This document shows, one piece after another, positions 20,733-62,571 of a stretch of 64,000 nucleotides of DNA. Position 1 is the stretch's first letter; the number at the start of each line of letters is the position of its first letter. Both the position numbers and the translations under genes were made by a program. The notes below the pieces were generated by a model, which made no database searches, had not been told where the DNA came from, and saw only the letters and a program-made list of their open reading frames with translations. The stretch comes from Prostheceraeus crozeri (lineage: Eukaryota; Platyhelminthes; Polycladida; Euryleptidae). The stretch lies in the NCBI GenBank assembly GCA_907163375.1, contig CAJQUW010000529.1:1-64000 (forward strand). The letters are read 5' to 3'.

Positions 20733-20908
20733 TACTGTCGCACAGTAGCGTTTTATGAAGTTGTTTATTCCACTGCTGAGAGTGTTCTAATGCACTTGCA
20801 TCCACACTTTTGTTGATCGTGGGCAACAGCTCACGATTAAGATATTAAGGCAACTGATTCTCGTCACCGATTCAATTATCTGTTGACATAAGCTGATCAT
20901 GTAGCGTT

Positions 20909-21930
20909 TTGCGATCTGTTCTACACAAGAAATCAACGGGACTATTGCAGAATCTACGTCCAGTAACACCAGGAAGAACAACAGCTGGTGCACGAAAGGC
21001 TGGGTGTCATGGCGGTATGCCCAGTCTTCTCCAATTCCCGACATTGGAGGAACTGTCGACCGCTGATGAGAAAGTGACCTCGAGTGCACTGTGTCATTTC
21101 ATCTACGAGATCAGAAGGCAAGACGGGAAAGAATATCCGCCCTACACGCCCTACACTGCCCTAAGAAATGACAGACCGAGTCTTCAAGTATTGTCAAAGG
21201 AAGACATGGCATTCTGCTACTTCCGAAAATGCCTCGACGCAAAGATGATTGATCTCACCAAAAGAAGAATCGGAACATCACGAACTCGAGCAAATCCGGT
21301 ATTAGTTGAGCATGAAACACAGCTATGGAATAAGTGCGCCTTTTCTTTGAATGATATCTTCGGTCTATTAGGTGGTTTACTTCTACATATGCAAAGCTTT
21401 CGGTCTACGGGCCTCAGACGAACATAGAAGGCCAGAAGTGTCACAAATATCATTTGGAGAAGATTCCTTGGGGAAACATATTCGATTTTCCGGTCGAGAT
21501 AATAAGTCATACAAAGCTCGTTTCGGACAATCCAAGATCCATCTACAAAATAATATAAAAATACATCAAATCACTACAACGATGTGACATTTTTCAAGGT
21601 CCGTTTTATCGCCGTCATTTGAATATGATATCCAATGAGCCTCGCTTTGGAAAAGCACTAGTCAACAAGATCGCACAGCTGTTACCTAAAGCTGCCACAA
21701 CTGCTGGGTTGTCGGGAAACTTTACAGGACATTCCGAAAAAGTAATTTACGCCACCACATTATTTCAGCAAAATTTTGATGAGCAACTAATCAAGGACAG
21801 AACAGGCCATCGAAACGGATCTGTCAGACATTACAAACGTGTCTGTGAAAGACCAGGCCATCAGCGCAGCTCTCGAACCTCCACCTCCAAAAAAGAACCT
21901 TTTCGACTGCTCCAGTCAAAACAGTTCTGA
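20909..21930 (+). pseudogene. Crypton-type tyrosine recombinase pseudogene
   Basis: Three collinear segments in three frames make up one recombinase. The first (20,909-about 21,375) has LCHFIYEIRRQDGKEYPPY, KCLDAKMIDLTKRRIGT and LWNKCAFSLND. The second (about 21,372-21,585) has KAFGLRASDEHRRPEVSQ and FGEDSLGKHIRF. The third (about 21,583-21,930) has GPFYRRHL, GLSGNFTGHSEKVIYATTLF, FDEQLIKDRTGHRN and VRHYKR. The order matches metazoan Crypton integrases (DUF3504-like fold): the GHS block stands for the HxxR box, the GH block follows, and HYKR would hold the nucleophilic tyrosine. The HxxR box reads HSEK, which may be a clade trait or a loss. Two frameshifts make it non-functional as it stands. 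Cryptons lack terminal inverted repeats, so the element's ends cannot be defined. Confidence 0.85.
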
Positions 21931-22933
21931 TTTCAACTTGACTGTTTCTCTTGCATGAATAAAGAGAAACATTTGTGCTACTTTGGAATACTTTTTTGGA
22001 TTTTAAATAGTTTGTCATTAAATATTCAAATTTCATGCATTTGAAATAGACGCAAGATTAATTGAAAATAAAGTGAATAAAGAACTTTTAGATCAATTAA
22101 AATATATGTAAAAAATCTCAAAAAATGAAACATTACACATCAAATTAGAATTTTCATCTAGAACAAATTATATACATGTACTGTATACTGCACGTCCGGA
22201 TACTAGCTGTCTCACAATCTAAACGTACACAAAAGAGCGAATTTATTCATCAATTATTCACTCGGTATGAAACTGGCAGCAACAGAAAACAACCCCATTC
22301 AGAATATTGAAAACAATCCATTGAGAATGATGGCAAAGCAGTATCTGAATGCTGATATAGCATAGAAACACTTGCAGAAATCTGCAGTTACCCGACGTGG
22401 TATCTATGATTCATGCAGGTCATATAGCGAGAAATGTCGGTTGACTGTAAAACTGTGGCGACAATTTGGTTGCACCATTATATGCCCGCCGATTTCACAT
22501 AAAATTCTCACCGTACCAGATAGTCATGAACCGTCGTCCGTCACTCAAGTTTGAGGATCCATTAATGAATGCATTGGCAAACTGATATTTCAAATCATTT
22601 CTAGAGAGAAATCTGAATTTCAAATCTACTCACATTTTGCAGACATTCATAGACTTTCAAACTTTTCATGAATTATCATCTATTAAGAGAGCAAACTACC
22701 ATAGACTTCAATAAAAGTCAATCAAAGATTTCTTAATCTCTCCAATATCTGTGACTAACGGTGATCAATAATTGCAATATTCATAGACTTCTCAAGAGTC
22801 ACATACAATAGCACTGCATCATGGATTTTGCGGGGAGAAATATCAAACAGGCTGACGCAGCCTCGTCTATGTCTGATATTACTCCCCTAAAAACTATTAC
22901 TAGCCTCAAACAGCTGGAAGGCTTACACTCAGT
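21931..22933. other. Intergenic sequence left of the minisatellite
   Basis: AT-rich, with no gene recognised. The array starts abruptly after the unique string GCTTACACTCAGT. Confidence 0.5.
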
Positions 22934-25900
22934 CAGTCGCTGATACAGAGGAGGAGGTTGCAGTCGCGGACTGTGGGGAGGAGGTTGCAGTCGCGGACTG
23001 TGGGGAGGAGGTTGCAGTCGCGGACCGTGAGGAGGAGGTTGCAGTCGAGGACTGTGGGGAGGAGGTTGCAGTCGCGGACTGTGGGGAGGAGGTTGCAGGT
23101 TGCAGTCGCGGACTGTGGGGAGGAGGTTGCAGTCGCAGACGGTGGGGAGGAGGTTGCAGTCGCGGATCGTGGGGAGGAGGTTGCAGTCGCGGACTGTGGG
23201 GAGGAGGTTGCAGTCGCGGACTGTGGGGAGGAGGTTGCAGTCGCGGACTGTGGGGAGGAGGTTGCAGTCGCGGACCGTGGGGAGGAGGTTGCAGTCGCAG
23301 GCTGCGTGGAGGAGGTTGCAGTCGCGGACTGTGGGGAGGAGGTTGCAGTCGCTGACAGTGGGGAGGAGGTTGCAGTCGCGGACCGTGGGGAGGAGGTTGC
23401 AGTCGCGGACTGTGAGGAGGAGGTTGCAGTCGCGGACCGTGGGGAGGAGGTTGCAGTCGCGGACCGTGGGGAGGAGGTTGCAGTCGCGGACTGTGGGGAG
23501 GAGGTTGCAGTCGCGGACCGTGGGGAGGAGGTTGCAGTCGCGGACTGTGGGGAGGAGGTTGCAGTCGCGGACCGTGGGAGGAGGTTGCAGTCGCGGACGG
23601 TGGGAGGAGGTTGCAGTCGCGGACTGTGGGGAGGAGGTTGCAGTCGCGGACTGTGGGGAGGAGGTTGCAGTCGCGGACTGTGGGGAGGAGGTTGCAGTCG
23701 CAGACTGTGGGAGGAGGTTGCAGTCGCGGACTGTGAGGAGGAGGTTGCAGTCGCGGACTGTGGGAGGAGGTTGCAGTCGCAGACTGTGGGGAGGAGGTTG
23801 CAGTCGCGGACTGTGGGGAGGAGGTTGCAGTCGCGGACTGTGGGGAGGAGTTGCAGTCGCGGACTGTGGGGAGGAGGTTGCAGTCGCGGACTGTGGGGAG
23901 GAGGTTGCAGTCGCGGACTGTGGGGAGGAGGTTGCAGTCGCGGACTGTGGGAGGAGGTTGCAGTCGCGGACTGTGGGGAGGAGGTTGCAGTCGCGGACTG
24001 TGGGGAGGAGGTTGCAGTCGCGGACTGTGGGGAGGAGGTTGCAGTCGCGGACCGGGGGGAGGAGGTTGCAGTCGCGGACTGGTGGGCGGAGGTTGCAGTC
24101 GCGGACTGTGGGGAGGAGGTTGCAGTCGCGGACTGTGGGGAGGAGGTTGCAGTCGCGGACTGTGGGGAGGAGGTTGCAGTCGCGGACTGTGGGGAGGAGG
24201 TTGCAGTCGCGGACTGTGGGGAGGAGGTTGCAGTCGCGGACCGTGGGGAGGAGGTTGCAGTCGCGGACCGTGGGGAGGAGGTTGCAGTCGCGGACCGCGG
24301 GGAGGAGGTTGCAGTCGCGGACTGTGGGGAGGAGGTTGCAGTCGCGGACTGTGGGGAGGAGGTTGCAGTCGCGGACTGTGGGGAGGAGGTTGCAGTCGCT
24401 GATACCGAGGAGGAGGTTGCAGTCGCAGGCTGTGGGGAGGAGGTTGCAGTCGCGGACTGTGGGGAGGAGGTTGCAGTCGCGGACTGTGGGGAGGAGGTTG
24501 CAGTCGCGGACTGTGGGGAGGAGGTTGCAGTCGCAGGCTGTGGGGAGGAGGTTGCAGTCGCGGACTGTGAGGAGGAGGTTGCAGTCGCGGACTGTGCGGA
24601 GGAGGTTGCAGTCGCGGACGGTGAGGAGGAGGTTGCAGTCGCGGACTGTGGGGAGGAGGTTGCAGTCGCGGAGAGTGGGGAGGAGGTTGCAGTCGCGGAC
24701 GGTGGGGAGGAGGTTGCAGTCGCGTAGAGTGGGGAGGAGGTTGCAGTCGCGGACTGTGGGGAGGAGGTTGCAGTCGCGGACTGTGGGGAGGGGGTTGCAG
24801 TCGCGTACCGTGGGGAGGAGGTTGCAGTCGCGGACTGTGCGGAGGAGGTTGCAGTCGCGGACTGTGGGGAGGAGGTTGCAGTCCCGGACTGTGGAGAGGA
24901 GATTGCAGTCGCGGACTGTGGGGAGGAGGCTGCAGTCGCGGACTGTGGGGAGGAGGTTGCAGTCGCGGACTGTGGGGAGGAGGTTGCAGTCGCGGACTGT
25001 GAGGAGGAGGTTGCAGTCGCGGACCGTGGGGAGGAGGTTGCAGTCGCGGACTGTGGGGAGGAGGTTGCAGTCGCGGACTGTGGGGAGGAGGTTGAAGTCG
25101 CGGAGAGTGTGGAGGAGGTTGCAGTCGCGGACTGTGTGGAGGAGGTTGCAGTCGCGGAGAGTGTGGAGGAGGTTGCAGTCGCGGACTGTGGGGAGGAGGT
25201 TGCAGTCGCGGACTGTGGGGAGGAGGTTGCAGTCGCGGACTGTGGGGAGGAGGTTGCAGTCGCGGAGTGTGGGGAGGAGGTTGCAGTCACGGAGTGTGGG
25301 GAGGAGGTTGCAGTCGCGGAGTGTGGGGAGGAGGTTGCAGTCGAGGACTGCGGGGAGGAGGTTGCAGTCACGGAGTGTGGGGAGGAGGTTGCAGTCGCGG
25401 ACTGTGGGGAGGAGGTTGCAGTCGCGGACTGTGGGGAGGAGGTTGCAGTCGCGGACTGTGGGGAGGAGGTTGCAGTCGCGGACTGTGCGGAGGAGGTTGC
25501 AGTCGCGGACTGTGGGGAGGAGGTTGCAGTCGCGGACTGTGGGGAGGAGGTTGCAGTCGCGGACTGTGGGGAGGAGGTTGCAGTCGCGGACTGTGGGGAG
25601 GAGGTTGCAGTCGCGGACTGTGGGGAGGAGGTTGCAGTCGTGGACTGTGGGGAGGAGGTTGCAGTCGCGGACTGTGGGGAGGAGGTTGCAGTCGCGGACT
25701 GTGGGGAGGAGGTTGCAGTCGCGGACTGTGCGGAGGAGGTTGCAGTCGCGGACTGTGGGGAGGAGGTTGCAGTCGCGGACTGTGGGGAGGAGGTTGCAGT
25801 CGCGGACTGTGGGGAGGAGGTTGCAGTCGCGGACTGTGGGGAGGAGGTTGCAGTCGCGGACTGTGGGGAGGAGGTTGCAGTCGTGGACTGTGGGGAGGAG

Positions 25901-28900
25901 GTTGCAGTCGCGGACTGTGGGGAGGAGGTTGCAGTCGCGGACTGTGGGGAGGAGGTTGCAGTCGCGGACTGTGGGGAGGAGGTTGCAGTCGCGGACTGTG
26001 GGGAGGAGGTTGCAGTCGTGGACTGTGGGGAGGAGGTGCAGCCGCGGACTGTGTGGAGGAGGTTGCAGTCGCGGACTGTGGGGAGGAGGTTGCAGTCGCG
26101 AACTGTGAGGAGGAGGTTGCAGTCGCGGACTGTGGGGAGGAGGTTGCAGTCGCGGACTGTGGGGAGGAGGTTGCAGTCGCGGACTGTGAGGAGGAGGTTG
26201 CAGTCGCGGACTGTGAGATGGAGGTTGAAGTCGCAGACTGTGGGGAGGAGGTTGCAGTCGCGGACTGTGGGGAGGAGGTTGCAGTCGAGGGCTGTAGGGA
26301 GGAGGTTGCAGTCGCGGACTGTGCGAGGAGGTTGCAGTCGCGGAGAGTGGGGAGGAGGTTGCAGTCGCGAACTGTGGGGAGGAGGTTGCAGTCGCGGACT
26401 GTGGGGAGGAGGTTGCAGTCGCGGACTGTGGGGAGGAGGTTGCAGTCGCGGACTGTGGGGAGGAGGTTGCAGTCGCGGACTGTGGGGAGGAGGTTGCAGT
26501 CGCAGGCTGTGGGGAGGAGGTTGCAGTCGCGGACTGTGGGGAGGAGGTTGCAGTCGCGGACTGTGGGGAGGAGGTTGCAGTCGCGGACTGTGGGGAGGAG
26601 GTTGCAGTCGCGGACTGTGGGGAGGAGGTTGCAGTCGCGGACTGTGGGGAGGAGGTTGCAGTCGCGGACTGTGGGGAGGAGGTTGCAGTCGCGGACTGCG
26701 GGAGGGAGGTTGCAGTCGCGGACCGTGGGGAGGAGGTTGCAGTCGCGGACTGTGGGGAGGAGGTTGCAGTCGCGGACTGTGGGGAGGAGGTTGCAGTCGC
26801 GGACTGTGGGGAGGAGGTTGCAGTCGCGGACGGTGGGGAGGAGGTTGCAGTCGCGGACTGTGGGGAGGAGGTTGCAGTCGCGGACTGTGGGGAGGAGGTT
26901 GCAGTCGCGGACTGTGAGGAGGAGGTTGCAGTCGCGGACTGTGGGGAGGAGGTTGCAGTCGCGGACTGTGGGGAGGAGGTTGCAGTCGCCGACCGTGGGG
27001 AGGAGGTTGCAGTCGCGGACTGTGGGGAGGAGGTTGCAGTCGCAGGCTGTGAGGAGGAGGTTGCAGTCGCGGACTGTGGGGAGGAGGTTGCAGTCGCGGA
27101 CTGTGGGGAGGAGGTTGCAGTCGCGGACTGTGGGGAGGAGGTTGCAGTCGCAGACTGTGTGGAGGAGGTTGCAGTCGCGGACTGTGGGGAGGAGGTTGCA
27201 GTCGCGGACTGTGGGGAGGAGGTTGCAGTCGCGGAGAGTGGGGAGGAGGTTGCAGTCGCGGACTGTGGGGAGGAGGTTGCAGTCGCGGACTGTGAGGAGG
27301 AGGTTGCAGTCGCGGACTGTGGGGAGGAGGTTGCAGTCGCGGACTGTGGGGAGGAGGTTGCAGTCGCGGACTGTGGGGAGGAGGTTGCAGTCGCGGACCG
27401 TGGGGAGGAGGTTGCAGTCGCTGACTGTGGGGAGGAGGTTGCAGTCGCGGACTGTAGGGAGGAGGTTGCAGTCGCGGACTGTGAGGAGGAGGTTGCAGTC
27501 GCGGACTGTGGGGAGGAGGTTGCAGTCGCGGACGGTGGGGAGGAGGTTGCAGTCGCGGACAGTGGGGAGGAGGTTGCAGTCGCGGACTGTGGGGAGGAGG
27601 TTGCAGTCGCAGGCTGTGGGGAGGAGGTTGCAGTCGCGGACTGTGGGGAGGAGGTTGCAGTCGCGGACTGAGGGGAGGAGGTTGCAGTCGCGGACTGTGA
27701 GGAGGAGGTTGCAGTCGCGGACTGTGAGGAGGAGGTTGCAGTCGCAGGCTGTGGGGAGGAGGTTGCAGTCGCGGACTGTGAGGAGGAGGTTGCAGTCGCG
27801 GACTGTGGGGAGGAGGTTGCAGTCGCGGACTGTGGGGAGGAGGTTGCAGTCGCGGACTGTGGGGAGGAGGTTGCAGTCGCGGACTGTGGGGAGGAGGTTG
27901 CAGTCGCGGACTGTGGGGAGGAGGTTGCAGTCGCGGACGGTGAGGAGGAGGTTGCAGTCGCGGAGAGTGGGGAGGAGGTTGCAGTCGGAGACTGTGGGGA
28001 GGAGGTTGCAGTCGCGGACTGTGGGGAGGAGGTTGCAGTCGCGGACCGTGGGGAGGAGGTTGCAGTCGCGGACTGTGGGGAGGAGGTTGCAGTCGCAGGC
28101 TGCGTGGAGGAGGTTGCAGTCGCGGACTGTGAGGAGGAGGTTGCAGTCGCGGAGAGTGGGGAGGAGGTTGCAGTCGCGGACTGTGGGGAGGAGGTTGCAG
28201 TCGCGGACTGTGGGGAGGAGGTTGCAGTCGCGGACTGTGGGGAGGAGGTTGCAGTCGCGGACAGTGGGGAGGAGGTTGCAGTCGCGGACTGTGGGGAGGA
28301 GGTTGCAGTCGCGGACAGTGGGGAGGAGGTTGCAGTCGCGGACAGTGGGGAGGAGGTTGCAGTCGCGGACTGTGAGGAGGAGGTTGCAGTCGCGGACTGT
28401 GGGGAGGAGGTTGCAGTCGCCGACTGTGGGGAGGAGGTTGCAGTCGCGGACAGTGGGGAGGAGGTTGCAGTCGCGGACTGTGGGGAGGAGGTTGCAGTCG
28501 CGGACTGTGGGGAGGAGGTTGCAGTCGCGGACTGTGGGGAGGAGGTTGCAGTCGCGGACTGTGGGGAGGAGGTTGCAGTCGCGGACTGTGGGGAGGAGGT
28601 TGCAGTCGCGGACTGTGGGGAGGAGGTTGCAGTCGCGGACTGTGGGGAGGAGGTTGCAGTCGCGGACTGTGGGGAGGAGGTTGCAGTCGCGGACGGTGGG
28701 GAGGAGGTTGCAGTCGCGGACTGTGGGGAGGAGGTTGCAGTCGCGGACTGTGGGGAGGAGGTTGCAGTCGCGGACTGTGGGGAGGAGGTTGCAGTCGCGG
28801 ACTGTGGGGAGGAGGTTGCAGCCGCGGACTGTGGGGAGGAGGTTGCAGTCGCGCAGACTGGGGAGGAGGTTGCAGTCGCGGACTGTGAGGAGGAGGTTGC

Positions 28901-31900
28901 AGTCGCAGGCTGTGGGGAGGAGGTTGCAGTCGCGGACTGTGGGGAGGAGGTTGCAGTCGCGGAGAGTGGGGAGGAGGTTGCAGTCGCGGACTGTGGGGAG
29001 GAGGTTGCAGTCGCGGACTGTGGGGAGGAGGTTGCAGTCGCGGACGGTGGGGAGGAGGTTGCAGTCGCGGACTGTGGGGAGGAGGTTGCAGTCGCGGACT
29101 GTGGGGAGGAGGTTGCAGTCGCGGACTGTGGGGAGGAGGTTGCAGTCGCGGACAGTGGGGAGGAGGTTGCAGTCGCGGACTGTGGGGAGGAGGTTGCAGT
29201 CGCGGACTGTGCGGAGGAGGTTGCAGTCGCGGACTGTGGGGAGGAGGTTGCAGTCGCGGACAGTGGGGAGGAGGTTGCAGTCGCAGGCTGTGGGGAGGAG
29301 GTTGCAGTCGCGGACTGTGGGGAGGAGGTTGCAGTCGCGGAGAGTGGGGAGGAGGTTGCAGTCGCGGACTGTGGGGAGGAGGTTGCAATCGCGGATTGTG
29401 GGGAGGAGGTTGCAGTCGCCGACTGTGGGGAGGAGGTTGCAGTCGCGCAGACTGGGGAGGAGGTTGCAGTCGCGGACTGTGAGGAGGAGGTTGCAGTCGC
29501 AGGCTGTGGGGAGGAGGTTGCAGTCGCGGACTGTGGGGAGGAGGTTGCAGTCGCGGAGAGTGGGGAGGAGGTTGCAGTCGCGGACTGTGGGGAGGAGGTT
29601 GCAGTCGCGGACTGTGGGGAGGAGGTTGCAGTCGCGGACGGTGAGGAGGAGGTTGCAGTCGCGGACTGTGGGGAGGAGGTTGCAGTCGCGGACTGTGGGG
29701 AGGAGGTTGCAGTCGCCGACTGTGGGGAGGAGGTTGCAGTCGCGGAGAGTGGGGAGGAGGTTGCAGTCGGAGACTGTGGGGAGGAGGTTGCAGTCGCGGA
29801 CTGTGGGGAGGAGGTTGCAGTCGCGGACCGTGGGGAGGAGGTTGCAGTCGCGGACTGTGGGGAGGAGGTTGCAGTCGCAGGCTGCGTGGAGGAGGTTGCA
29901 GTCGCGGAGAGTGGGGAGGAGGTTGCAGTCGCGGACTGTGGGGAGGAGGTTGCAGTCGCGGACTGTGGGGAGGAGGTTGCAGTCGCGGACTGTGGGGAGG
30001 AGGTTGCAGTCGCGGACGGTGAGGAGGAGGTTGCAGTCGCGGAGAGTGGGGAGGAGGTTGCAGTCGCGGACTGTGGGGAGGAGGTTGCAGTCGCGGACAG
30101 TGGGGAGGAGGTTGCAGTCGCCGACTGTGGGGAGGAGGTTGCAGTCGCGGACTGTGAGGAGGAGGTTGCAGTCGCGGACTGTGGGGAGGAGGTTGCAGTC
30201 GCGGACTGTGGGGAGGAGGTTGCAGTCGCGGACAGTGGGGAGGAGGTTGCAGTCGCGGACTGTGGGGAGGAGGTTGCAGTCGCGGACTGCGGGGAGGAGG
30301 TTGCAGTCGCGGACTGTGGGGAGGAGGTTGCAGTCGCTGGCTGAGTGGAGGAGGTTGCAGTCGCGGAGAGTGGGGAGGAGGTTGCAGTCGCGGACTGTGA
30401 GGAGGAGGTTGCAGTCGCGGACTGTGGGGAGGAGGTTGCAGTCGCGGACTGTGGGGAGGAGGTTGCAGTCGCGGACTGTGGGGAGGAGGTTGCAGTCGCG
30501 GACTGTGGGGAGGAGGTTGCAGTCGCGGACTGTGGGGAGGAGGTTGCAGTCGCGGACTGTGGGGAGGAGGTTGCAGTCGCGGACTGTGGGGAGGAGGTTG
30601 CAGTCGCGGACTGTGGGGAGGAGGTTGCAGTCGCGGACTGTGGGGAGGAGGTTGCAGTCGCGGACTGTGGGGAGGAGGTTGCAGTCGCGGACAGTGGGGA
30701 GGAGGTTGCAGTCTCGGACTGTGGGGAGGAGGTTGCAGTCGCCGACGGTGGGGAGGAGGTTGCAGTCGCGGACTGTGGGGAGGAGGTTGCAGTCGCGGAC
30801 TGTGGGGAGGAGGTTGCAGTCGCCGACTGTGAGGAGGAGGTTGCAGTCGCGGCCTGTGAGGAGGAGGTTGCAGTCGCGGACTGTGGGGAGGAGGTTGCAG
30901 TCGCGGACTGTGGGGAGGAGGTTGCAGTCGCGGACTGTGGGGAGGAGGTTGCAGTCGCGGACTGTGGGGAGGAGGTTGCAGTCGCGGACTGTGGGGAGGA
31001 GGTTGCAGTCGCGGACTGTGGGGAGGAGGTTGCAGTCGCGGACGGTGAGGAGGAGGTTGCAGTCGCGGACTGTGGGGAGGAGGTTGCAGTCGCGGACTGT
31101 GGGGAGGAGGTTGCAGTCGCGGACTGTGGAGAGGAGGTTGCAGTCGCGGACTGTGGGGAGGAGGTTGCAGTCGCGGACTGTGGGGAGGAGGTTGCAGTCG
31201 CGGACGGTGGGGAGGAGGTTGCAGTCGCGGACTGTGGGGAGGAGGTTTTGCAGTCGCGGACTGTGGGGAGGAGGTTGCAGTCGCGGACTGTGGGGAGGAG
31301 GTTGCAGTCGCGGACGGTGGGGAGGAGGTTGCAGTCGCGGACTGTGGGGAGGAGGTTGCAGTCGCGGAGAGTGCGGAGGAGGTTGCAGTCGCGGACTGTG
31401 GGGAGGAGGTTGCAGTCGCGGAGAGTGGGGAGGAGGTTGCAGTCGCGGACTGTGGGGAGGAGGTTGCAGTCGCGGACTGTGGGGAGGAGGTTGCAGTCGC
31501 GGACTGTGGGGAGGAGGTTGCAGTCGCGGACTGTGCGGAGGAGGTTGCAGTCGCGGACGGTGGGGAGGAGGTTGCAGTCGCGGACTGTGGGGAGGAGGTT
31601 GCAGTCGCGGACTGTGGGGAGGAGGTTGCAGTCGCGGACCGTGGGGAGGAGGTTGCAGTCTCGGAGAGTGGGGAGGAGGTTGCAGTCGCGGACGGTGGGG
31701 AGGAGGTTGCAGTCGCGGACTGTGGGGAGGAGGTTGCAGTCGCGGACTGTGGGGAGGAGGTTGCAGTCGCGGACTGTGGGGAGGAGGTTGCAGTCGCGGA
31801 CTGTGGGGAGGAGGTTGCAGTCGCGGACTGTGGGGAGGAGGTTGCAGTCGCGGACGGTGAGGAGGAGGTTGCAGTCGCGGACTGTGGGGAGGAGGTTGCA

Positions 31901-31966
31901 GTCGCAGACTGTGGGGAGGAGGTTGCAGTCGCGGACTGTGGGGAGGAGGTTGCAGTCGCGGACTGT
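22934..31966. repeat. Giant 27-bp G-rich minisatellite, about 335 units
   Basis: The commonest unit is GGACTGTGGGGAGG followed by AGGTTGCAGTCGC (14 G, 4 C, 4 A, 5 T on the plus strand). Variation is concentrated in the segment before GGGGAGG: GGACTG, GGACCG, GGACGG, GGACAG, GGAGAG, AGGCTG and CGACTG. GTGAGG and GTGCGG also replace GTGGGG. A few units are off-length: 26 bp near 23,570, 23,600, 23,705, 23,758, 23,830, 23,947 and 26,322, and a TT insertion at 31,246. G+C is about two thirds, against about 36% in the flanks. Because 27 is a multiple of three and the unit lacks stops, very long open frames appear on both strands. These are by-products: they read as QPPPHSPRL, ATATSSPQS, VADCGEEVA or RTVGRRLQS repeats. 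Confidence 0.97.
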
Positions 31967-33777
31967 TGAAAATGGTCACATATTCTAAAAAAACACTATG
32001 TTCTTTTTTGCTTTTTACCCTAGCCATGGTACAGACGCACGGAGAGAAAGAGTACAAACGTCTATCAGTATTACACTGAACGAATACGATCTGTCCGTGG
32101 AAGACAAGACGGAACATGCGAATGAAGCGAGTGCTCACGGGTGACTTCACAACTTCTAAAAGAATGATAGTCCAGAGCTCATAAACATTTCCGATGGAAA
32201 AAATAGAAAATTTTCACATTCGGAGTCAGGTCCACAGACGATGTTCTTTTAAGTACACTTGAAATCAAACAATATGTCTATCAGCACTAAGGAACGCAAG
32301 CAACCAGTCATACGCGAAAAGCATTCACAAATACAGAGATTGTGACAGACATTTGAACGGAACTGAACAATAAACGACTTCAGAAAGTAGTCACTGATTA
32401 TGTTTAGGGATTGCAATTCGGCATTCATTGGGGTTTTGCTAATCTTGAAATAGCGACATTCGTTTAGTTGTCATTTTAGCCGTTATTCATGGATGTTTTG
32501 ATATTAATTTTGTAGTCAATGACTTCCTTGCCAATAGAAATTGAATAGACTATTGAATACATTTCGAAATTTTTCTTAATATTTATAATTCAGTATTGCA
32601 GTACATTACAGGTGTGTCAGTATATAACTACTTACATGTTTGATTACACAGTGTACAGTGTATATGCTCTCGACATGCATTCTAGTCATTGGTTCATGGA
32701 CTAGGAAAGTTAAGAAAATAGCAAGAATTTCAGAATTAGTTCGTCTAAACCTACAATTTGTACATTTTCCTACTTCGATTCTTTTCAGCAGCAAATCAAT
32801 TTGTTGTAAAGGCATGAAACTGTATATTCTACATTATAGAGATGAGATGATAACACATCAAGAACTGCGCGCTTAGAAATCGTAAAAACTCTTGCGTGAA
32901 CTTTTCTTCTTGCGACAGCTGTGCTGAGCTGAGCAAATTTGCTGATGGTGAATTCGGTCATGCCAAAAGTTTGCAGGGATATAATCAAAGAAACAAAAGC
33001 TTTGATGTCTCATGTGCGTATGTTGGAAGACTCTCAAGAGAGAAAAACTGTTTTGATAGCGGAATGTCTTTGAATTGTCATGGGTTTAGAGAAAACAAAG
33101 ATTCTGTCATGGAATTTGCAATATTATATTCGAGTGTACGGTATGATAGATAGTCATGACATGATTCAGAGACTTTTATCTATAAAAAGGACTCACATTG
33201 AAAATTATCGCTTTTTGCTAGTTGTACAAAATGCTTGCAAAAAAAGTGGCAAAATTCAGACGTTCAAAAAGCACACTTTCAAAAATGATTTATAAATTTG
33301 ACCTTCCAGTGGGCCCAATTCCAGCGATTCTTTGTCGAATCATGAAATGCGCTGAAGTCAAAAGTCACGAAAGCATAGGTTGTCTGATTTAGCTTTGCGA
33401 GGACCCCAACAAAATGTCTAGGGAGAATGCCCTCCGGAATGGTAAGGGCTATATGAGCAAAATTACTTGTTATTGCAAATCACAGTAAATTAGGTAGGCT
33501 AATAGAGTATTAGAATTATATAGTAGCGCAGATCATCTAGGAAATAGTACAAGAGGTGGAAGTACGCAGCTGCGAAAAGAAAGTACTGCGAAATATGTTT
33601 TGGAGTGTGATGCAATTTATATGTGGTTTGGACTACTTTCAGCCCCTTTCATGAATCTTTGCGCAGACATTTTGAGCGGAAATGAAATCCATGATGTTAG
33701 TAGTTCAACAACATCTTAGTTGCTTTTGATGATTAAATGTGTGATGAAAGAATTATTGATTTGAGCGTGCTTCACGC
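31967..33777. other. Intergenic sequence right of the minisatellite
   Basis: G+C falls back to background immediately. Open frames of 60-85 codons at 32,606-33,295 have no recognisable domain. Nothing here supports a gene. Confidence 0.45.
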
Positions 33778-45660: not shown

Positions 45661-46940
45661 CTAACAGACTGTCTCTGGTTTGACGTTTTCCTTCTTCACA
45701 AATGTTCGGAAAACGAATTCACAAATTATAGCAATGAAAACAAGGGCGTAGCCGGCTAAAAGGAGATAAAAAACACTTAGGCTTGAATGAAGCCGAATGG
45801 GCAAAATCGATGCAAAGAATGCTGTTATCTCAGAGTACGAATATGTCAGTCCTGAGAATTGAGTTGTCATATCAACACCTGCTTCACGCAATCGCAACAG
45901 GGCTGTATTTATCTTAGAGTCAATACTTGATTGGCTACTCAAAAAGCCAAACTAGAAAAGTATGGTCCAACCTGAACGGCTGCGAGGTTAGAATTATTTG
46001 CCACCATTATTTTTGCACGCATCGAATCTGTTAGAAGTGCAATTTGACTGCTTGTGGATAGAATATCTGCTGACAGGGTTTCAAAAGTGCCCATAGGTGT
46101 TGCACCATTTGCGAATACGCTACTCCAACCATCATAAAGGTTCGTAAGTGGCATGGCCCTCGTCAATGAACATATAGTTGAATCCTGTGGACAGCGGATA
46201 TCGTATCCAGTTAAATCAAGTGATCCAGGAATTCGGCCAGTGTCACTATTGACAGCAACAGTTATGAAAATTCCTCCTATAAACATGAACATCAAGCAAA
46301 GTACAAATGCTGCCCAGAAAATGAGCAAAATTGACCCTCCAATAGATACAGGAAGTCTACAATGATTTTTCAGCAGCAAGCCACCAAATACAAGCATGAC
46401 ACATTCGACGGGCTGGAGTTTGCTTGGATTTTCATAATTCCATTCATTTTTATGATGGTAGCCGAACGGGTAAAGTACCTCACAGCCAATCATGAGTGTT
46501 AAAGTCAACAACAGTGCAAGAAGTATGAATGACCAGACAGATGAATGAAAAATATCGGTGAAATTCACAGCTGGCATTGAGAGCCGTCCAGATTTCTGAA
46601 ATACGAGTGTTGGAGCCAATCGTATAACGTCTATTGATGCACTCTCTAGCAGAGCTGTTTTGAGGATCAAACAAACTTGATAGGAACTGTTGCAACTCTT
46701 GATTGATTCAACGCTGTCAAAATCCATGTTTGAATATGAAGGAGTAAATGTCACGTTTGAAATATATTTCAATTGTAAATTCAATTGCTGCATCACAGTT
46801 TTTGAAATTTCTGACCCAGTCATTATTTGTGGAACCAAAGTTTGAAAATTTTCAGCAGTCTCTGAGACCACTAAATTGTTTCCATAAAATATCAGTAAAT
46901 AAATAGCCGATGAAAGCAAACTCTGACTCCGACACTCCAT
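45661..46940 (-). CDS. Ionotropic glutamate receptor-like channel, one frameshift
   Basis: From ATG at 46,940 the protein has a possible signal peptide (residues about 6-28, SLLSSAIYLLIFY), then a short S1-like ligand-binding half. TM1 follows (about 134-156, SSVWSFILLALLLTLTLMIG), then a re-entrant pore helix (about 176-190, PVECVMLVFGGLLL) and TM3 (about 203-228, ILLIFWAAFVLCLMFMFIGG). The S2 half is next. At 45,939 this frame stops, after ...YFSSLAF at a five-T run. The family resumes in the next frame with IDSKINTALLRLREAG, the end of S2, and TM4 (SVFYLLLAGYALVFIAIICEF), stopping at 45,661. The topology, pore spacing and the ALLRLREAG motif are those of iGluRs and variant IRs. There is no amino-terminal domain, and the usual SYTANLAAF gate in TM3 is replaced by FMFIGGIFI, so ligand and gating are unknown. 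The frameshift may be an assembly error, a recent lesion or real loss. It appears intronless, about 425 residues if uninterrupted. The frame stays open upstream to 47,025, so the start is uncertain. Confidence 0.8.
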
Positions 46941-49700
46941 GCCGCTTGAGTTTAAATGAATCGTGAGCGAGCTTACCAACCCTTCGAACTCAGAGAGTGA
47001 ATAAAGCCATGAGGTTGTAGTATTTTATGTATCTAATCGGTTGATGAACTCCGATGAAAGTGTCATGAACTTTAATTCAAAATAAAATGTTTTTTAAGTC
47101 TCTACCTTGCTTGTTGCTCATTATTTGATGTGCGGTATCACTTGAAAACTTGCAAGCACGTGGCAACTGCCTCGTTATCTATCAAATACATGCTCATGCT
47201 CTCATTGTGCTTTTTTATGTTTGTGAAACTATGACTACAGGAAATTTTATTGGTCTTACTTCAATATAGCTGCAAATTCTTGCTGAGCAAACGCGAGGTG
47301 CCCGTTAAAGAAGTTAGTGGCGTCATCAGTTCTGTTTTCCGCTGCTGTGCGCAAACGACGCTACTTGGCATGGCGACAGGTGTCACGCTTAACTCAGGAT
47401 GAGACAGAGTGAAGATTGAGATAAAAAAGTCAAAACTTCGAACGAACTACACCTTTAACAGCTTGACTACTACGCCTCTTGCGTGTCTTTCTCACTTTCA
47501 TAATTTCTGGTAGAACATCAATCAAATAAACAAAAATTATACTTTGGAAGGCATCAGAAAAATGTATAAATAATAGCAACAAAGCTGCGATAAATAAAAT
47601 GCAAAAAAGACACTTATAGGAACATTTCATGTCGCAAAAGCTTGAAGAAAACCAAATGAGAACCCCTCTGCCGCAACAATGGGTACCGTACAAATCATGT
47701 AGGCCACTGAGGAACTGGATACACCCTGTGGGAACGCATCTTGCTAATATCAACAGATTATCTGGCGAGGTAGCGATTTTGTGGATAATTTTTTAAAGGT
47801 TCATTTTCGTGTAAAAACTATTTACGCATGTGAAAATGGTCATCATTTATCCAAAAACACGTGTAAAATTAAAAAACGACAGGTGGCGAAAAAGTTGCTA
47901 TAATTAGTTGGTAGATATTTGTTTACTAATGCGAGCTGATTTTTCGCCTACCGGCGAAATCGTGGATATTGTAGCAACTAATTAGTGGTAAGTAGTAATG
48001 TTCGTATATTACCTTCACATGAAAATATATTGTATACTCAGTCTGATCTGATAAAAAGGGATCTTTTTTAATTCACGAAGGCTTAAACTAAAAAAAGTAT
48101 TTATCTTCCATAAATGTCGCAGTAAATGCTATGATATTATTCAAATATTTGTCATTGTTGTAAATTATTGAATGTCAAGAGATGTTATAAAAATTGATAT
48201 ATGCGGATTCTCAATAATCTTTTCATTAACAAAGAATGATAGTCTGCACTTATTTCTTAGATAGATTAGCCATATGTGGGTGATGGTGAGGAGGTGAGGG
48301 AGAAAAAAAGTCTCGGCTGTAGAGGCGGATTACTGAAGAAAATAAGAAAGAAAGTCAAAAGTAAAAGATGGCATACAGAGCGCGAATTGTCACCGGCGAA
48401 CTTCGCCAGCGAATATGCTGCAAATATGACTGAACTGTAGCATGATATTCTGCAGCTGACATCCGCCAGTTTTTCGCAAGATTCGTTCCCACAGGGCAGC
48501 TACACGACCTAGACCCTTCAGAAAAGCTACCCACGCATGTCCGTGGGAGTGGAGCTGTACCGCCTTTTTTCGAGCAGTTGACCGGGCCTGCCACCCAATG
48601 TATTACCAGTGGGTTCGGGACCCTCGAACTACCGAACGCTCGTATGCCGTTAATACCTGTCACATGGATCTGTCACACCTTAACCTGCAACAAATGTGGA
48701 AGTGCAAAAGAGAACAGTGAAAGGAAGTTCGATCATAAATGAGGCAAATAAGTGCCAAAAACTAAATCCAACAACATGAAACATCTGGTGACTGTTCATT
48801 AGGGTGGTTCAAAAAAATCGAAGTTGGAAAAGTCAGGATGCACGTCGCTATCCGACCTGAACATATTCGATAATTTCTCAACAAATCCTAGAAGACGAAG
48901 CATGAACAGTCAAGGCAAGGCAAGACAAAGGAACGAGACATTTCACATCTGATACATTTCTCTTGGGCTACATCGAATATCATGCAGTCACCATCAGCCC
49001 GGCCATTTGAGTCGTGGTAGTAACCATGTGAAAAAAATTGTATCAGCTGGGTGCAGTTATGTACCAGCAGAGACGAAAAGCAGACACATTTTTGTGGATG
49101 ATATACGACAGACATTCAATCAGGATGAATAAAGCGCTTAATTTTACAAGTAATCATCGTGAAAAATTATTCAAGGGCTCACAATGAACACATCGAGGTC
49201 GCTGGGTAGGCCTACACCTTTTAATCATAAATGATTCATGGTATCTGGGCACTTTTTCGGAAACTAGACAAGCTTTTACCTGATCTGAACCTAAAACTTA
49301 AATTTTGTTTAATGATAAACAAATTATTGACCTCCTGCAGTACGAATGACTGTCAAATAGCAGTAATGACGGTTTATGTGTCGTGCAAGTTGTGTTTTGC
49401 GAAATTTTGTTGCTTTATGATGGAATACTAATCAGTTTATCACTTCCATGTTGTAGCAGCAGTCAAGAGATAAATTCCACTCCTTAATTGGTGAAAAATT
49501 ACGAGACTCGCCTGTAAAACAAAGACTAAGCAAGGATGAATATCACTTTTTTTATCACGTGAGCAGCTTCTTAAACTTGTAAACTTGTAAATCTGTAAAC
49601 TTCCAAAATCAGCGAATCACCGTTCACGAATATCATTGTGACATTCTGATGACTGACGGACTGCAGTATTATGTTTTATATCCCTTAATCGGTAGCTGAA
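46941..49700. other. Intergenic sequence with two unassigned open frames
   Basis: Minus-strand 47,430-47,753 (107 codons) has a hydrophobic stretch CLFCILFIAALLLLFI followed by a basic tail, but no recognised family. Minus-strand 48,355-48,663 (102 codons) lies in a locally G+C-richer patch and is likewise unassigned. Neither has visible splice or promoter support. The rest is gene-poor. Confidence 0.35.
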
Positions 49701-52343
49701 GTAGTGGTCGATGTATTGTAATTCAAATGAAGAAATGTGGAATTGCATGAAGTACTATAGACGGATGAAGAAACTGGCGATAACAAATTCAAGTGAAGAA
49801 ATAGTATTTTCCATGTGTAGTCTTAGGTATAGTGTGTATAGTTTCATTGCTTTCGGTGTAGTAGAGTGTCATTGTAGTTCTATTGTTTACCTCCATTATC
49901 CACTTTCCACTTATCCACTCTTACCATTATCCACCATGTGTAGTGTCAGATATAATTCACTTGTAATCAGTGTAGTAGCATCGTTGTATTTCCATATTTT
50001 ACCCCACTTTTCCAATTTTTATTCATCGGTTTCCTGGTGTTTTATAGTATCCATTTTTAATTTCCTTAACCTATGGTGACCATTGTCTTATTCTATTTCC
50101 ACTATCAGCATCTGTAGTCGGTACAGTATATTAGAAGTCTGTTTTGAACGTGTATACGGCAGTGTTTGGAATCTATGGTATTAGTATATTAACAGCAAGA
50201 ATGAGTAGTATTACAAGTCTTAAGATTTCCATTTTTACCAGATATTGGGCCAAAGCTGATCAATTTTAATTCGTTGCCACGAGAAAGCTACATTGAGTTC
50301 TTTTAAGAACTGATTAATTCAATGGTTACAGTAGCATTGCCTTTGTACACTTGCGGATTGGAGAACGCCATCAGTCCTCCTTAGGACTACTTTAACTAAT
50401 AATTTAAATTAGTAAGCATTATATTCTATTATAAATGGCTACTGGGATGACTTTCATCATCGTATGAGAATTCAGCATTTCGGAATAATTTGACGATTAT
50501 TTTAATAACTAATTTTGTTAGTCGTGACAATTGAACTAAGGAAAAAGAACTTGAAAAAAGAGAATATAATAGTTTCTCTTTTGTTACTTTATTAAAATGA
50601 ACAATTCAAATTGCAATATTTTAAGTGAAATGGCTGTATATATTATCATCACAATTGAATGAGAAGATACTTCTGCTATCTGATGATTTTATCTTAAATA
50701 AGTCAGTTCAAGTGTAGAATCTAGGAACATAGCATAGGATTAGAATTTTATGCAAACAATTGATGCTTAAAAATAAACAATCCCTTTATTATAACGCTTA
50801 TGTCACGATGACTGAAACCAATCGTGTCAGTTTATCAATATAAGCTGGGGTGGGGCCATTTCCGTGTCCGCACCATAGCGGACATATTCGAATGATTACC
50901 CGTGTCCGCACTGTCGCCCGCAGTTCAGTTATTGCTCCTGAGCTCAGTATGTCAAGTTTCTAACTAATATTCTTTTATTCCGAGAAAGTAGAAGCTGGCG
51001 ATAAGGATCGAAACATAAGGTACCATCAGACGTTGCACATCCAACACGCCCTTTGTATCACATCCAAACAAACTAGAGAACATCAAAGTCAATGTGAGAA
51101 GTCAAATCTTTTCCATTGTGTGAATATGCCTAATGCTATATAGGCCTATTCTTTGCAGAGGAAACTTCTAAAAAAGCCATCGTTCACAACCGGGCAATAA
51201 AGCCAAGGTCTAGCTTTCAAGAAGAGTATCTAAAGAATACAAATAATGAATACCTTACTGCGTGTGGAAGGCCTACTCAGACTGCGTCGAATGAACAAAC
51301 CATGTATAGCTCCGACCATAGAGTACTCCATGGCTCCGACGAAGTGCATAAGCTTCAAAAACTTTCATCATTGCTGAAGGTACTTCAATCTGCCTTGAAG
51401 CATCACCTACTCCATACAAAAGCATTGAAACCAGGTCAGTAACTGCATCCATCAGGCTTCCTCAAACACAGAAAGAGAAGACTCAAACTTCATATGCACA
51501 AAACTGACCATGTCTCAAAAACGTGATACGAACATAATAAACACAAAGACTACTGCTGCTGTTCAATGTCCTTCACCTCTGTAGGACACCAGTGAATGAT
51601 TTCATGACCATTTTGATTTCATGGACGTTGAGTGTACAAAAATTTAGTAAACCTTTAAGAAATAGGCCATTTTCCATGAAAACTAGAGAACTACAACCTA
51701 GAGTAATCATAGACTAAGTTTGTAAAACGTTTCCTGCCACCCATTGCCTCTATAGGACACGTGTGAAGGATTCCATGACCATTTTGTGTAGGTACCTGGT
51801 CGTTGAGTGTGCATAAATTTAGAAAATCTGTAAGAAATAAGCCATTTTCTATGAAAATTAGAGATTTACAACCTTTAAACAAAGGGATGTAGGCTATAGC
51901 TGGTGATAAAAGTTAGCAACACTGACTTTACCAATAGCGATCTATTAATCAGTGACAAGAAGCTGGCGAATTTCGGTTTGCCAATAGCCATCTACTCGCA
52001 AACTGCATTATCGCTAGCTAAGACATCGCTTGCTCGCTCACTAAAAGCCAGCGACTAGTGAGCACTTTTCCCAGCGGGTACGTCTAGATCTGATCGTGTA
52101 TTCAACAGTGAGACTGAACGCCATCCAATTGAACTACTTCATAAACAAATGCCGTTCAAAATTTTCGTGAACTTGTCATTTACTGGTGGTCGACATCACA
52201 GAGTGTACATGTTTTAGGAACTGACAGTGCCGTGGGAGGATCGACTAGAGGAGGCGCATGAGAGAAAGACGAATAGATATGAAAGGCTGGTGGAAGTGTA
52301 GAAGGAAAGGATGGACGATCAATATATGGCCGGTATATCGACC
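49701..52343. other. Intergenic sequence with a diverged tandem duplication
   Basis: Plus-strand 49,711-50,079 is open for 122 codons. It spans a weak internal duplication (CCATGTGTAGT...GTGTAGTAG at about 49,811 and 49,935), so it is probably not a gene. Nothing else coding is recognised. Confidence 0.4.
51569..51884. repeat. Two-copy diverged tandem duplication, about 180-bp period
   Basis: Copies at about 51,569-51,704 and 51,743-51,884 share GACACxxGTGAA, CATGACCATTTTG, GTTGAGTGT, AGAAATA(G/A)GCCATTTTC and TAGAGA..TACAACCT. Identity is roughly 80% by eye. Confidence 0.75.
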
Positions 52344-56805: not shown

Positions 56806-57218
56806 CTGAAAGAATTGCATATTTTCTGTAGTGCATAGCATTCAGAACATGTTGCAAACTTCGATAACTAAGCTGAGCCCCTAAGACTTGCGACTTATTG
56901 AAGACATGCACCAATGGTAGGCACAACATATTGCTCAAATAAAAGAAATTGTGCATGATTTAAAATGTTTAAGGATATACATACGTAAGTCGAAGGTGAA
57001 AAAATAGACCTATTCATAGCCTATTTATTATCTAAGTGTCTGGTTTAGGTTTCTGTCTAAATGTTAGACTAATAAAGATGAAAGTTTTCTGTAAACTTGT
57101 GTCCATGAGAGTATATCACTAATGAGTAGCCTATACATGGATCTGAATAAGAATCTCAAATACCTAAATACAAACCCCAAATGGTCCCCTAATTATTTTT
57201 TTCGTAAACTGAACTTAC

Positions 57219-58902
57219 CATCCTCTTTTTGTTTCCTCTGGCTCAACTCATTGATGTAAGTTTTATTTGTCAGATGAAATGGTATTCGCTTCCTTTTGAT
57301 TTCTTTCTTCCTGATCCTCTTAGGAGTTGGACATAAGTTCCAAAAGCTGCACTGAGGAAGATCTTGGTTGTAAGAGGGATCGTTGTCGCCGATCGATGGA
57401 CTCAGTTCGGGTAGCTGCTCGACATAATCTACGGGTGGGGTCAATGTCGATTGTGGTTTTGCTTCATCGACTATAAGCGCTTCAGCTTCGGTCAGTGTCG
57501 ATTTTGGTTTTGCTTCATCGACTATAAGTGCTTCAGCTTCGGTCAGTGTCGATTGTGAGTTTGCTTCATCGACTAGAAGCTCTTCGGCTGGGGTCAGTGT
57601 CGACTGTGAGTTTTCTTCATTGACTGGAAGCTCTAAAGGAATCTCTTCGGCTTGCGTCAGTGTCGACTGGTCATTTTCGTCTTTATCTACAGGCACATTT
57701 TCTTTTTCTGTGATGTTACTTGGAAGGAATGCGTCAGCAGGTATTTTTGACATATTCAACGGGAAAATGCCTGTACGTTTGAAAGACGAAATCACTACGT
57801 TTTTTTCAAATGCTTTGTTTGATATTTTGGTAATCAAATTTAGAAGTTCAATCTTGGACAGTGACCGGCCTCCATTTTCTCGGACTAATTGAAGTCCAAT
57901 AGATCGCCATTCACACTTCATTGTTGCGAAGACATCCTTATCCAAAGGTTGCAAATACTGAGAAGTGTGTGGGGGTAGACACCAAACCTCGATATTCTGT
58001 GAGTGAAGAGAAACGATAAAGTCATAGTTAAGAGAATGGGTTGAATGTCCATCCAGTAGCAGTAAAACAGTTTTCTCTTTATCTATGTCCCCATATCTTC
58101 GTTTCGTTTGAATGAACTCAGCAAATTTTCTTCCGAATTCAACCATCAGTTCAGATGTTATCCAACCCTTCTCGCTGCATCGAATGTAGCCACCAGGTGG
58201 AGCATATTCTGCCCATTCTTTTCTAACAATCTTTCCTTTGAATATTATCAACATCGGAGAGCGATCTCCATTCGCATTAACGGCAGTTAACAATGTCGTT
58301 GTTTCGCCCTTTTCCTTGGGAGTGATTTGAAAAACACGGCCTGTAGCACTTGCTAGAACAGCATTGGCTTCGAAATGGTCTTGTAATCCCGTCTCATCCG
58401 CGTTGTATATGTACTTTGGATCATTTAATATCTCTTTCTCAATCAGAAAAGCGGATAAATCATCAAAGAACTTCGTCACTAGAGGCCGGTTCATCCCGCT
58501 TGCCCGAAACGTCGAAAGAATTTCAGGCTTTCTGGTTGAAATTGATGGATTTCTGGACAGAAAACCGCACAGCCATTCGTATCCCGCCGACTTTTTACTC
58601 TCGTTAAATGGAACTAATGCTTGATTAGCCTTAGCGTAGTCGTAAGCAAGCTTACACACCGCAGATTTAGAAAGACCAAACCCTTGTTTTGCTAACTTTA
58701 TTATCAATTCTTTTAATTCGTATTCTATTTCTTTGCTAAACACTGGTTTTCTTCCTGATGACGAGGTAATCACCTTTGTGTTCCCACTTATTCTATCTCG
58801 CAATGTAGTTCTCGGAACATTCCATCGACGTGCTATCATGCGAACAGATGAAGCGTCAACCTCGGTTCGAGTATTGTAATAACTTTCTAAGGCTCTTTCC
58901 AT
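57219..58902 (-). CDS. Pogo/Tigger transposase, exon 1 (HTH plus DDE domain)
   Basis: This exon encodes the DNA-binding and catalytic parts. Residues 1-45 form a psq/CENP-B-like helix-turn-helix (ARRWNVPRTTLRDRISG). Residues 50-125 form a second CENP-B/Tc5-type domain (GFGLSKSAVCKLAYDYA). The DDE domain follows, with catalytic acids at D169 (YNADETG), D284 (LLLDGHSTH) and D321 (LQPLDKDVF), 36 residues apart for the last pair. A 17-residue acidic repeat spans about 420-490, and a basic PKRIRKKEIKRKR segment near 540 could direct nuclear import. The exon ends at a consensus donor, GATG|GTAAGT (57,219/57,218). The coding frame is open upstream of the ATG, and a better start (MSLPGRKSKS at 59,009) is one base out of frame across a seven-T run at 58,963-58,969. 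The true N-terminus is therefore either longer, with one base missing here, or truncated. Confidence 0.9.
57435..57670 (-). repeat. In-frame 51-bp tandem repeat in the transposase
   Basis: Copies aligned on GCTTCATCGACTA start at 57,461, 57,512 and 57,563, with a diverged one at 57,614, each 51 bp apart. They encode a 17-residue unit of the type VDEAKPQSTLTEAEALI. The repeat keeps frame and lies between the DDE domain and the basic tail, as a flexible acidic linker. Confidence 0.9.
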
Positions 58903-59668
58903 ATCTTTCGGATCCCACTTGTTTAACTTAGATGCCTTACAGCTACCCTTCTGGCCATCTTCTTTTTTTGTAGACGATTTGATTTTGATTTTCGTCCAGG
59001 TAAAGACATTTCTACAAAAAGTTACTGCATATATATTCCCATCTAAGTGGGCCTACATCCTATCTATGTTGAAGGTTTGTGTGCCAAATCGCAAATAACT
59101 AATGTACATTTATGCAATTTCTGTATAGAATTGACGGATGATGATACCACATAAGATAATGGATAAGTCTAATAGCAAAATCGGATACGATTTGAAGTTT
59201 TTCAAAAGTTAGGGTAAATTCGCCCACATAAATCCAGCTGGGCGACTTTATCTAATTGGTCGTATTCTATAAAACGGTCGACATTTTGTCGCATGAACGA
59301 ATACTAAATGAAAGAATAACTTTCATAGTTTTAATAGAGCTTTGTGATGATGTGTTCTCATGATATTAACGTTGAAATGTTTCTGACTATCCTTATGAAC
59401 TGCTAGAGCGACAAGTTAAGCAAAAAACGCCAACTCACTTAGATGACGTGCAACTCACCGGGATTTCACACACGAAATGAATAAGGCGATCTGTCTGATG
59501 AAATGATGCAGCCAACTTTGATTGGCCGATCGAATAGCAAATAGGAAGCGCTAATCTTGAGGAACGCAATCGTGACGGCTGCAAATGTGGCGGTTTCTCA
59601 CCGTGGGAAAGCAGTTAACGTAGGTGGGCGAGTTTCTCCGGTGGGCGAGTTTGGAACAAAATACCCTA

Positions 59669-61769: not shown

Positions 61770-62571
61770 TATGGAACATTAGACTATATTGGTTTCCATG
61801 CATGCATGCATGCGTATATTCAAGGTGTAAGTATGTACATGTAAAGTTATTGTCTTTTCTAACTTTTTGTAAGCATCTTGCGATACTGGTAGAATTTTAG
61901 ATTTAAAGGCACTGCTATTATTGATAAGATTTATGCTCTTATGCTTTCACCTACTAAAACCGCATCAGATAAAAAGGAAAGAGTTTAAACTTATTAGGGT
62001 GATTATCATGTTTGTATTAAAATTCAAGTGTGAATTTTAATTTTAATACATAATTAAAATAATTTCAAATATTATGGACCATGGATTCAAGCTTCATAGA
62101 TAATTAAAATACTGTGGTGGCGGTGATATTAGATTTCTGTCATTACATTTGGTCCATACATGCTTATTTAGAGAGCAACTCATCATCCTTATGAATAGAT
62201 TCTCTTCTTTGTTTCTTTGAAAAGTCGGTCACCTCAGTTTGATGTGAATTGTAGCCACAGATTTAGAGAGGAACAGATAAACTGCTTTCCCTAAACGTTC
62301 ACGCTGACGGCGTTGAAGGCCGCCGATCGGTGTTTACTTTGATGACAATTTGCGATAGACAGGCAAGAAATGTGTTGACCAGATGGGATACTTATCGCGT
62401 TGAGGCGATAACATCTCACGTTTTTGACAATTTGATGATTATGCTCATGTGTATGACATATATGTGTGCTAAGTCCATTTTGAGATAAATTGATGTCGAC
62501 ATCATTCAACAGCAATTCTGTAGGGCTGCTGAACAAGAATTTTGATTTAATTAAATGATAAGTCGTCACAG
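61770..62571. other. Intergenic sequence
   Basis: It contains a short CATG/TGCA alternation (61,797-61,813). No gene is recognised. Confidence 0.45.

Follow-up and report, generated by a model that had tools for sequence, protein, structure and literature searches.

A locus-specific 27-bp GC-rich minisatellite of a flatworm genome, with a near-invariant and a variable part in each unit

Analysis of a 64,000-nucleotide stretch of the Prostheceraeus crozieri genome, hereafter the window, revealed a real, large and locus-specific GC-rich minisatellite, known from one assembly, whose 27-bp units are divided into a nearly constant part and a part that carries most of the substitutions. This split is real, and its cause is not demonstrated. 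We consider it likely that the array is a neutral, strand-asymmetric minisatellite of this one locus, lying among mobile-element remnants and grown and shuffled by slippage and recombination; we infer both the exchange mechanism and the neutrality. Apart from the near-invariant half of each unit, it is a large but ordinary minisatellite. Its 334 units document closely how an array acquires changes and propagates them, and the split, absent from two sister arrays, represents a clean case for asking whether minisatellite amplification depends on sequence.

Minisatellites consist of head-to-tail units of about 10–100 bp, forming arrays of about 0.5–30 kb. The present array, with 334 head-to-tail units of 27 bp over 9 kb, falls within these bounds, and displays the GC-richness and strand asymmetry that are usual, though not universal, in this class, as well as confinement to one locus with variant repeat units. 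TRF found one array (22950–31966, period 27, 333.9 copies, 94% matches, score 16203), and cyclic alignment to the consensus resolved 334 units of 66 gapped types, in agreement with the single block of about 335 units of 27 bp reported in a preliminary description made from the sequence. The canonical unit occurs 181 times over the 27 columns, or 178 times when insertions are counted, and 12 of the 334 rows are gapped or bear an insertion, one of these being merely the cut array end. The start at 22934, already proposed in that description, is justified because positions 22934–22966, which comprise an incomplete, diverged first unit and the beginning of the second, match the array at 24393–24425 with 97% identity (Table 1). 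The G+C content amounts to 0.663 compared with 0.366 in the rest of the window, a 1.8-fold difference close to the doubling claimed earlier, and a GC skew of 0.55 bears out the G-richness of the plus strand. The statement that every common unit has a G run and TCGCGG holds for most units, the array of about 334 units containing 273 copies of GGGGAGGAGG, 284 of TCGCGG and 308 of GAGGAGGTTGCAGTCGC, but 'every' is slightly too strong since the GGGG run is missing from the type that ranks second in frequency (18 units).

Table 1. The array, its parts and its neighbours in the window, and the comparison arrays on their own contigs
Feature	Position	Strand	Unit and size	Basis or remark
Possible tyrosine-recombinase mobile element remnant, left neighbour	20736..22477	+		Phage_integrase, matching pieces
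Copy of a high-copy element, left neighbour	22471..22893		~423 bp	ends 40 bp before 22934
27-bp G-rich minisatellite array	22934..31966	+	334 units, consensus GGAGGAGGTTGCAGTCGCGGACTGTGG	TRF, cyclic alignment, partial first unit; unit restricted to the locus
Diverged partial first unit	22934..22949	+		resembles the array around 24393-24425, 97% over query 41-73
20-unit block	27944..28483	+	units 186-205	unit-string alignment with a block 66 units further
Related 20-unit block	29726..30265	+	units 252-271	unit-string alignment
Decayed fragment of a larger repeated element, right neighbour	32023..32236			56 bp past the array
C25			unit 78 bp, 61.6 copies, 4.8 kb	found by pattern scan
C146	37128-39890		unit 28 bp, 98.5 copies, 2.8 kb	found by pattern scan
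C4365	84000-89500		unit 28 bp, at least 197 copies	fills the whole 5.5 kb examined
C7350	from 322000		unit 30 bp	fills the whole 6.5 kb examined; exact hits over 311649-327739 (16 kb)

With regard to its distribution, a genome-wide search for the unit, suggested in the preliminary description, gave, in the 2.05-Gb genome, 327 forward and no reverse matches to a 23-mer when as many as three mismatches were allowed (control 0 and 1), and all 327 lie in the window, which excludes a dispersed satellite DNA family. The core 16-mer, allowing one mismatch, has 334 forward and 6 reverse matches in the genome and 327 in the window; 100 shuffled versions of the window contained none. The few core matches outside the array are at chance level (backward control 6 and 10), and the core shows no enrichment elsewhere in the genome. 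Stretches of 72–73 bases spanning either edge of the array had no match other than themselves, apart from one array unit matched by the left-edge stretch. The array was also considered as part of a mobile element, which was rejected since the array and its 40–60 bp flanks are unmatched elsewhere, whereas the adjoining elements are repeated. In addition, none of the 31 further loci examined contained the core word, no exact matches were found in viral contigs or prokaryote genomes, and Rfam gave no RNA family match at the gathering score. Among the published accounts available to us in excerpt, no minisatellite with clustered or core-confined variation, and no flatworm minisatellite, was recognised as this array.

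Inside the unit, 16 substitutions fall in positions 1–16 (0.30% per base and unit) and 226 in positions 17–27 (6.2%), as expected from the conserved core and variable segment recognised beforehand. Of the 81 single changes that are possible, the first part displays 12 of its 48 and the second 28 of its 33 (Fisher p ~1e-7). When each unit type was derived from the nearest commoner type, using the 322 units without gaps or insertions, at least 75 events were inferred, with 68 of them outside a quiet 13-bp block at positions 4–16. The likelihood gain of such a split reaches 26.5, compared with a 95% level of 5.8 and a largest value of 11.5 in 500 draws of an even-spread null (5.0 with 200 draws), so that substitution is not uniform along the unit. 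Changes are fewer in the core and, moreover, are not seen multiplying there: single-copy types hold 15 events in positions 1–16 and 39 in positions 17–27, and multi-copy types 0 and 21, respectively (Fisher p 0.008, a test that assumes the unit types to be independent). The variable segment being nearly saturated, recurrent mutation there could itself yield multi-copy types.

The genome harbours other long GC-rich arrays (C146, C4365, C7350 and C25), with a G+C content of 0.57–0.61 and units carrying GGGAGGAGG on one strand, the remainder of the unit being, as judged by eye, unrelated to that of the window array. The presence of GGGAGGAGG in all five arrays is not readable as a common core, because four of them were found by searching part of it. 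The position test detected no split in C146 (32 events, gain 3.6 against a null of 5.5) or in C4365 (15 events, 3.0 against 5.8), and a weaker split around a G homopolymer in C25 (39 events, 11.5 against 7.2), whose events come from only 24 of its 61 units, those without gaps. With another consensus phase, 34 events and a gain of 4.0 were obtained for C146, and 38 events and 13.8 for C25. C7350 is nearly invariant, with 206 of 216 rows identical, and has zero substitutions to test. Thus, the window array is not unique in kind in this genome, and none of the few arrays compared with it, three of the four being testable, has as strong a split. The GGGAGGAGG run itself is not generally protected, since the commonest substitution of C146 and C4365 falls within it (21 of 97 and 37 of 197 units, respectively).

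Some further observations concern these arrays. In the 6.5 kb read of C7350, the sole variation is a 3-bp deletion at five places and the 206 full units are identical, which makes it far more homogeneous than the window array. C146 and C4365 have the same 28-bp unit on two contigs, with substitutions of 2.7% and 1.1%; the two contigs may be allelic or represent separate loci. Across 30 loci totalling 118,550 bases, a biased sample, the longest array reached at least 471 bp and lay at the end of the examined stretch. Pairs of GGAGGAGG at 27-bp spacing number 3676 forward and 2747 reverse in the genome, and 309 in the window, counts that attest only to the commonness of the pattern as they are mixed with GGA microsatellites and the backward control is the pattern itself. 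A narrower pattern gave 17 forward and 6 reverse matches, against 16 and 2 for its backward control, hence no special excess.

Selection or molecular drive might preserve a constant block of this kind, GGAGGTTGCAGTC, as a putative protein-binding element, the rest of the unit serving as spacer. Such an element, hinted at in the preliminary description, seems to us rather unlikely. It would fit the sharp box profile, with 7 of the at least 75 events in 13 of the 27 positions, the confinement of core variants to single-copy types, and the fact that two comparison arrays with units of about this length have no split. However, nothing beyond the core itself speaks for protein binding: the core word is not enriched outside the array, each of the 334 copies should be nearly selection-free, and the eight open frames scanned, which would not reveal small exons, include no host gene adjoining the array.

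Mutation rather than selection could also have produced the contrast. The GGGGAGGAGG run is immediately preceded, on its 5′ side, by positions 17–27, and error-prone synthesis past a stall at this run would make them a local hypermutation segment, an explanation that is possible but not probable. The contact of the variable segment with the G run agrees with it, as do the transversions (122 of the 226 substituted cells) and the frequent multi-base changes in this segment. G-rich minisatellites such as CEB1 form quadruplexes and rearrange, according to the parts of the CEB1 reports at our disposal, and provide a precedent (PMC2673046, PMC5491262). Nevertheless, the profile is box-shaped, with no gradient away from the G run, and the array is devoid of G3 motifs with loops up to 12. 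Furthermore, C146 and C4365, which contain GGGAGGAGG, are most variable inside the run, and the stretch before it forms no hot block.

The variation could in part be a consensus artefact, as the PacBio assembly was polished with short reads that are not uniquely placeable in a 9-kb array. The available text of the assembly report describes an assembly by Flye, polished by NextPolish with short and long reads (PMC9469890), and the order of the variant units is near random, as errors of placement would have it. We regard this as quite improbable, given that errors should ignore the split within the unit and that C146 and C4365, presumably treated alike, have none; the same excerpts give a read N50 of ~30 kb, and such reads can span 9 kb (PMC9469890). 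Variants may have been displaced from one unit to another during short-read polishing, and the fine unit order should therefore not be over-read.

The distribution of unit types along the array suggests exchange between distant units. Multi-step types recur far apart, namely a four-change type at units 13, 191 and 257, and two-change types found 12 and 8 times; such recurrences are not easily given by repeated point mutation and thus support exchange in the array. The closeness of same-type units lacks significance overall (P 0.13), although 5 of 17 variant types are closer than random at P <0.05, uncorrected. The alignment of the two 20-unit blocks listed in Table 1 scores 21.3, against maxima of 7.6–15.7 in five shuffles, which reveals a block duplication, and a 7-unit block recurs 22 units off (score 17.0). 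A lag of 66 units gives the highest excess of matching variant units, its z of 4.2 lying just below the best-of-all-lags 95% level of 4.27. Repeat homogenisation, the other proposal of the preliminary description, finds support in the distant multi-step types and in the block duplication, but does not alone explain the split because it acts on whole units.

According to the neutral minisatellite reading that we favour, an ancestral single 27-bp stretch would have been duplicated, either by unequal exchange or by slippage during replication, after which intra-array recombination would have enlarged and reshuffled the array through block duplication and non-reciprocal transfer, leading to one dominant type and scattered variant units. 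The copy number, period and base composition, confinement to one locus, interspersed recurrent variants, the lack of any sign of coding constraint, and the presence of other long G-rich minisatellites in the genome argue for it. Against it, a neutral array is expected to be even along its unit, as are C146 and C4365 (with few events), whereas the window array is uneven. For the split itself, we weakly favour a raised mutation input in positions 17–27 combined with a presumptive core-dependent amplification. Duplication or transfer would need a perfect anchor in the quiet block, and units with a damaged block would not multiply. Pursued further, this leads to a doubtful proposal, in which the unit would be a two-part module made of a 13-bp block, kept perfect for copying, and a freely varying segment of 14 bp, with the block either serving as an annealing anchor or being recognised by a sequence-specific factor of recombination or replication. 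If true, the array would record core-dependent amplification, and a single sequence would make this molecular drive visible.

The preliminary description also stressed that the repeat is open in nearly all frames. This is true of the unit, in which all six frames are open, but it carries little weight as six open frames in tandem are found in 22% of shuffled 27-mers of the same composition. A coding repeat, for example in the EEVAVADCG or TVRDCNLLP frame, is hardly credible. Synonymous changes do exceed expectation in two frames (0.38 against 0.28, and 0.44 against 0.26); however, of the 89 and 83 synonymous changes, 68 in each case fall at position 23 (mapped by hand), and 10 of the 11 internal gapped rows shift the frame, one being a multiple of three. 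In the EEVAVADCG frame, also mapped by hand, the third codon positions of the quiet block are without substitution, which is the opposite of protein-level constraint and argues against coding. We rejected a coding tandem repeat on the grounds of frame-keeping and synonymous preference, and the array is apparently non-coding DNA.

Quadruplex, CpG and open-frame features add little to this picture. The G-quadruplex clusters announced beforehand persist as two-tetrad candidates (309 motifs with loops 1–7 on the plus strand), but not as canonical ones: four runs of at least three G with loops 1–7 number 0 on either strand of the array, which excludes a canonical G-quadruplex array, and G3 motifs with loops up to 12 also number 0 on both strands. 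Extending the loops up to 25 gave 55 G3 motifs on the plus strand, and G4Hunter reaches at least 1.2 in 3.3% of 25-base windows. Similarly, the hundreds of clustered CpGs are present (689 in the array), but their density mostly follows base composition, the observed/expected ratio being 0.99 compared with 0.85 in the flanks; on this ratio, a CpG island was discarded. A hairpin stem pairing positions 12–16 with 20–24 (CAGTC-GCG-GACTG) is intact in 254 of the 334 units. A conserved hairpin or structured-RNA repeat was rejected, since 108 of the 125 changed pair cells break this stem.

Among known systems, the GC-rich hypervariable autosomal minisatellites of vertebrates, of the Jeffreys type (for example, MS32), resemble the window array in their unit of tens of bases, kilobase length, GC-richness, strand asymmetry, interspersed variants and locus specificity. 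The present array differs from them in belonging to an invertebrate and in having its variation largely confined to one part of the unit. The COX1 gene of this genome translates well, with conserved residues in place, when AAA is taken for N and ATA for I, which indicates the mitochondrial code of echinoderms and flatworms. Human CEB1, as described in the accessible parts of its reports, shares the G-rich strand, the repeat-to-repeat polymorphism and the kilobase tandem array (PMC2673046, PMC5491262). Its unit, of 39 nt and 77% GC with a G-sextet and three G-triplets, forms quadruplexes (PMC2673046, PMC5491262), whereas the unit studied here has one GGGG run and otherwise G-doublets, without a canonical motif. 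According to the excerpted account of MSY1 on the human Y, variants are interspersed in many autosomal human minisatellites and arranged in blocks in MSY1, and the window array is like the former, its variants being interspersed and not in blocks (PMC2599865). MSY1 is comparable in its unit of 25–27 bp, its potential hairpin and its base-substitution variants, but it is 75% A+T and has block-wise variants, as far as the same account goes (PMC2599865). In the window array, moreover, units of other lengths occur, and most changes in the arms of the hairpin disrupt it.

The array is bordered by repeated elements. Full-length matches to the ~423-bp element on its left have 87–90% identity (40 of the 1692 candidates were scored), and this element is probably MITE-like. 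Further left, the stretch listed in Table 1 matches Phage_integrase with an E value of 0.0015; its 18.8 bits fall short of the curated cut-off (27.1). On another contig, a shortened relative comprises pieces corresponding to 20736–20782, 20775–20945 and 21790–22477, and the remnant in the window may derive from a tyrosine-recombinase mobile element. On the right, the decayed fragment shares 73–79% identity with its relatives (40 of the 169 candidates scored, with 14 copies aligned).

In other parts of the window, a 619-residue open frame at 57193–59052 on the minus strand matches DDE_1 (E 1.6e-22), together with a sub-threshold Tc5 HTH match, and is what we take to be a pogo/Tigger-like transposase; a 51-bp tandem repeat lies inside it at 57439–57625. 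A 361-residue open frame at 45939–47024 on the minus strand matches Lig_chan (E 5.9e-8) and is ionotropic-receptor-like, and another open frame, at 62551–63012 on the plus strand, matches the HTH domain of P-element transposases (E 5.9e-17). Finally, a tandem region with a period of 175 and at least 2.7 copies starts within 73315–74000 of C433, and resembles positions 51575–51874 of the window.
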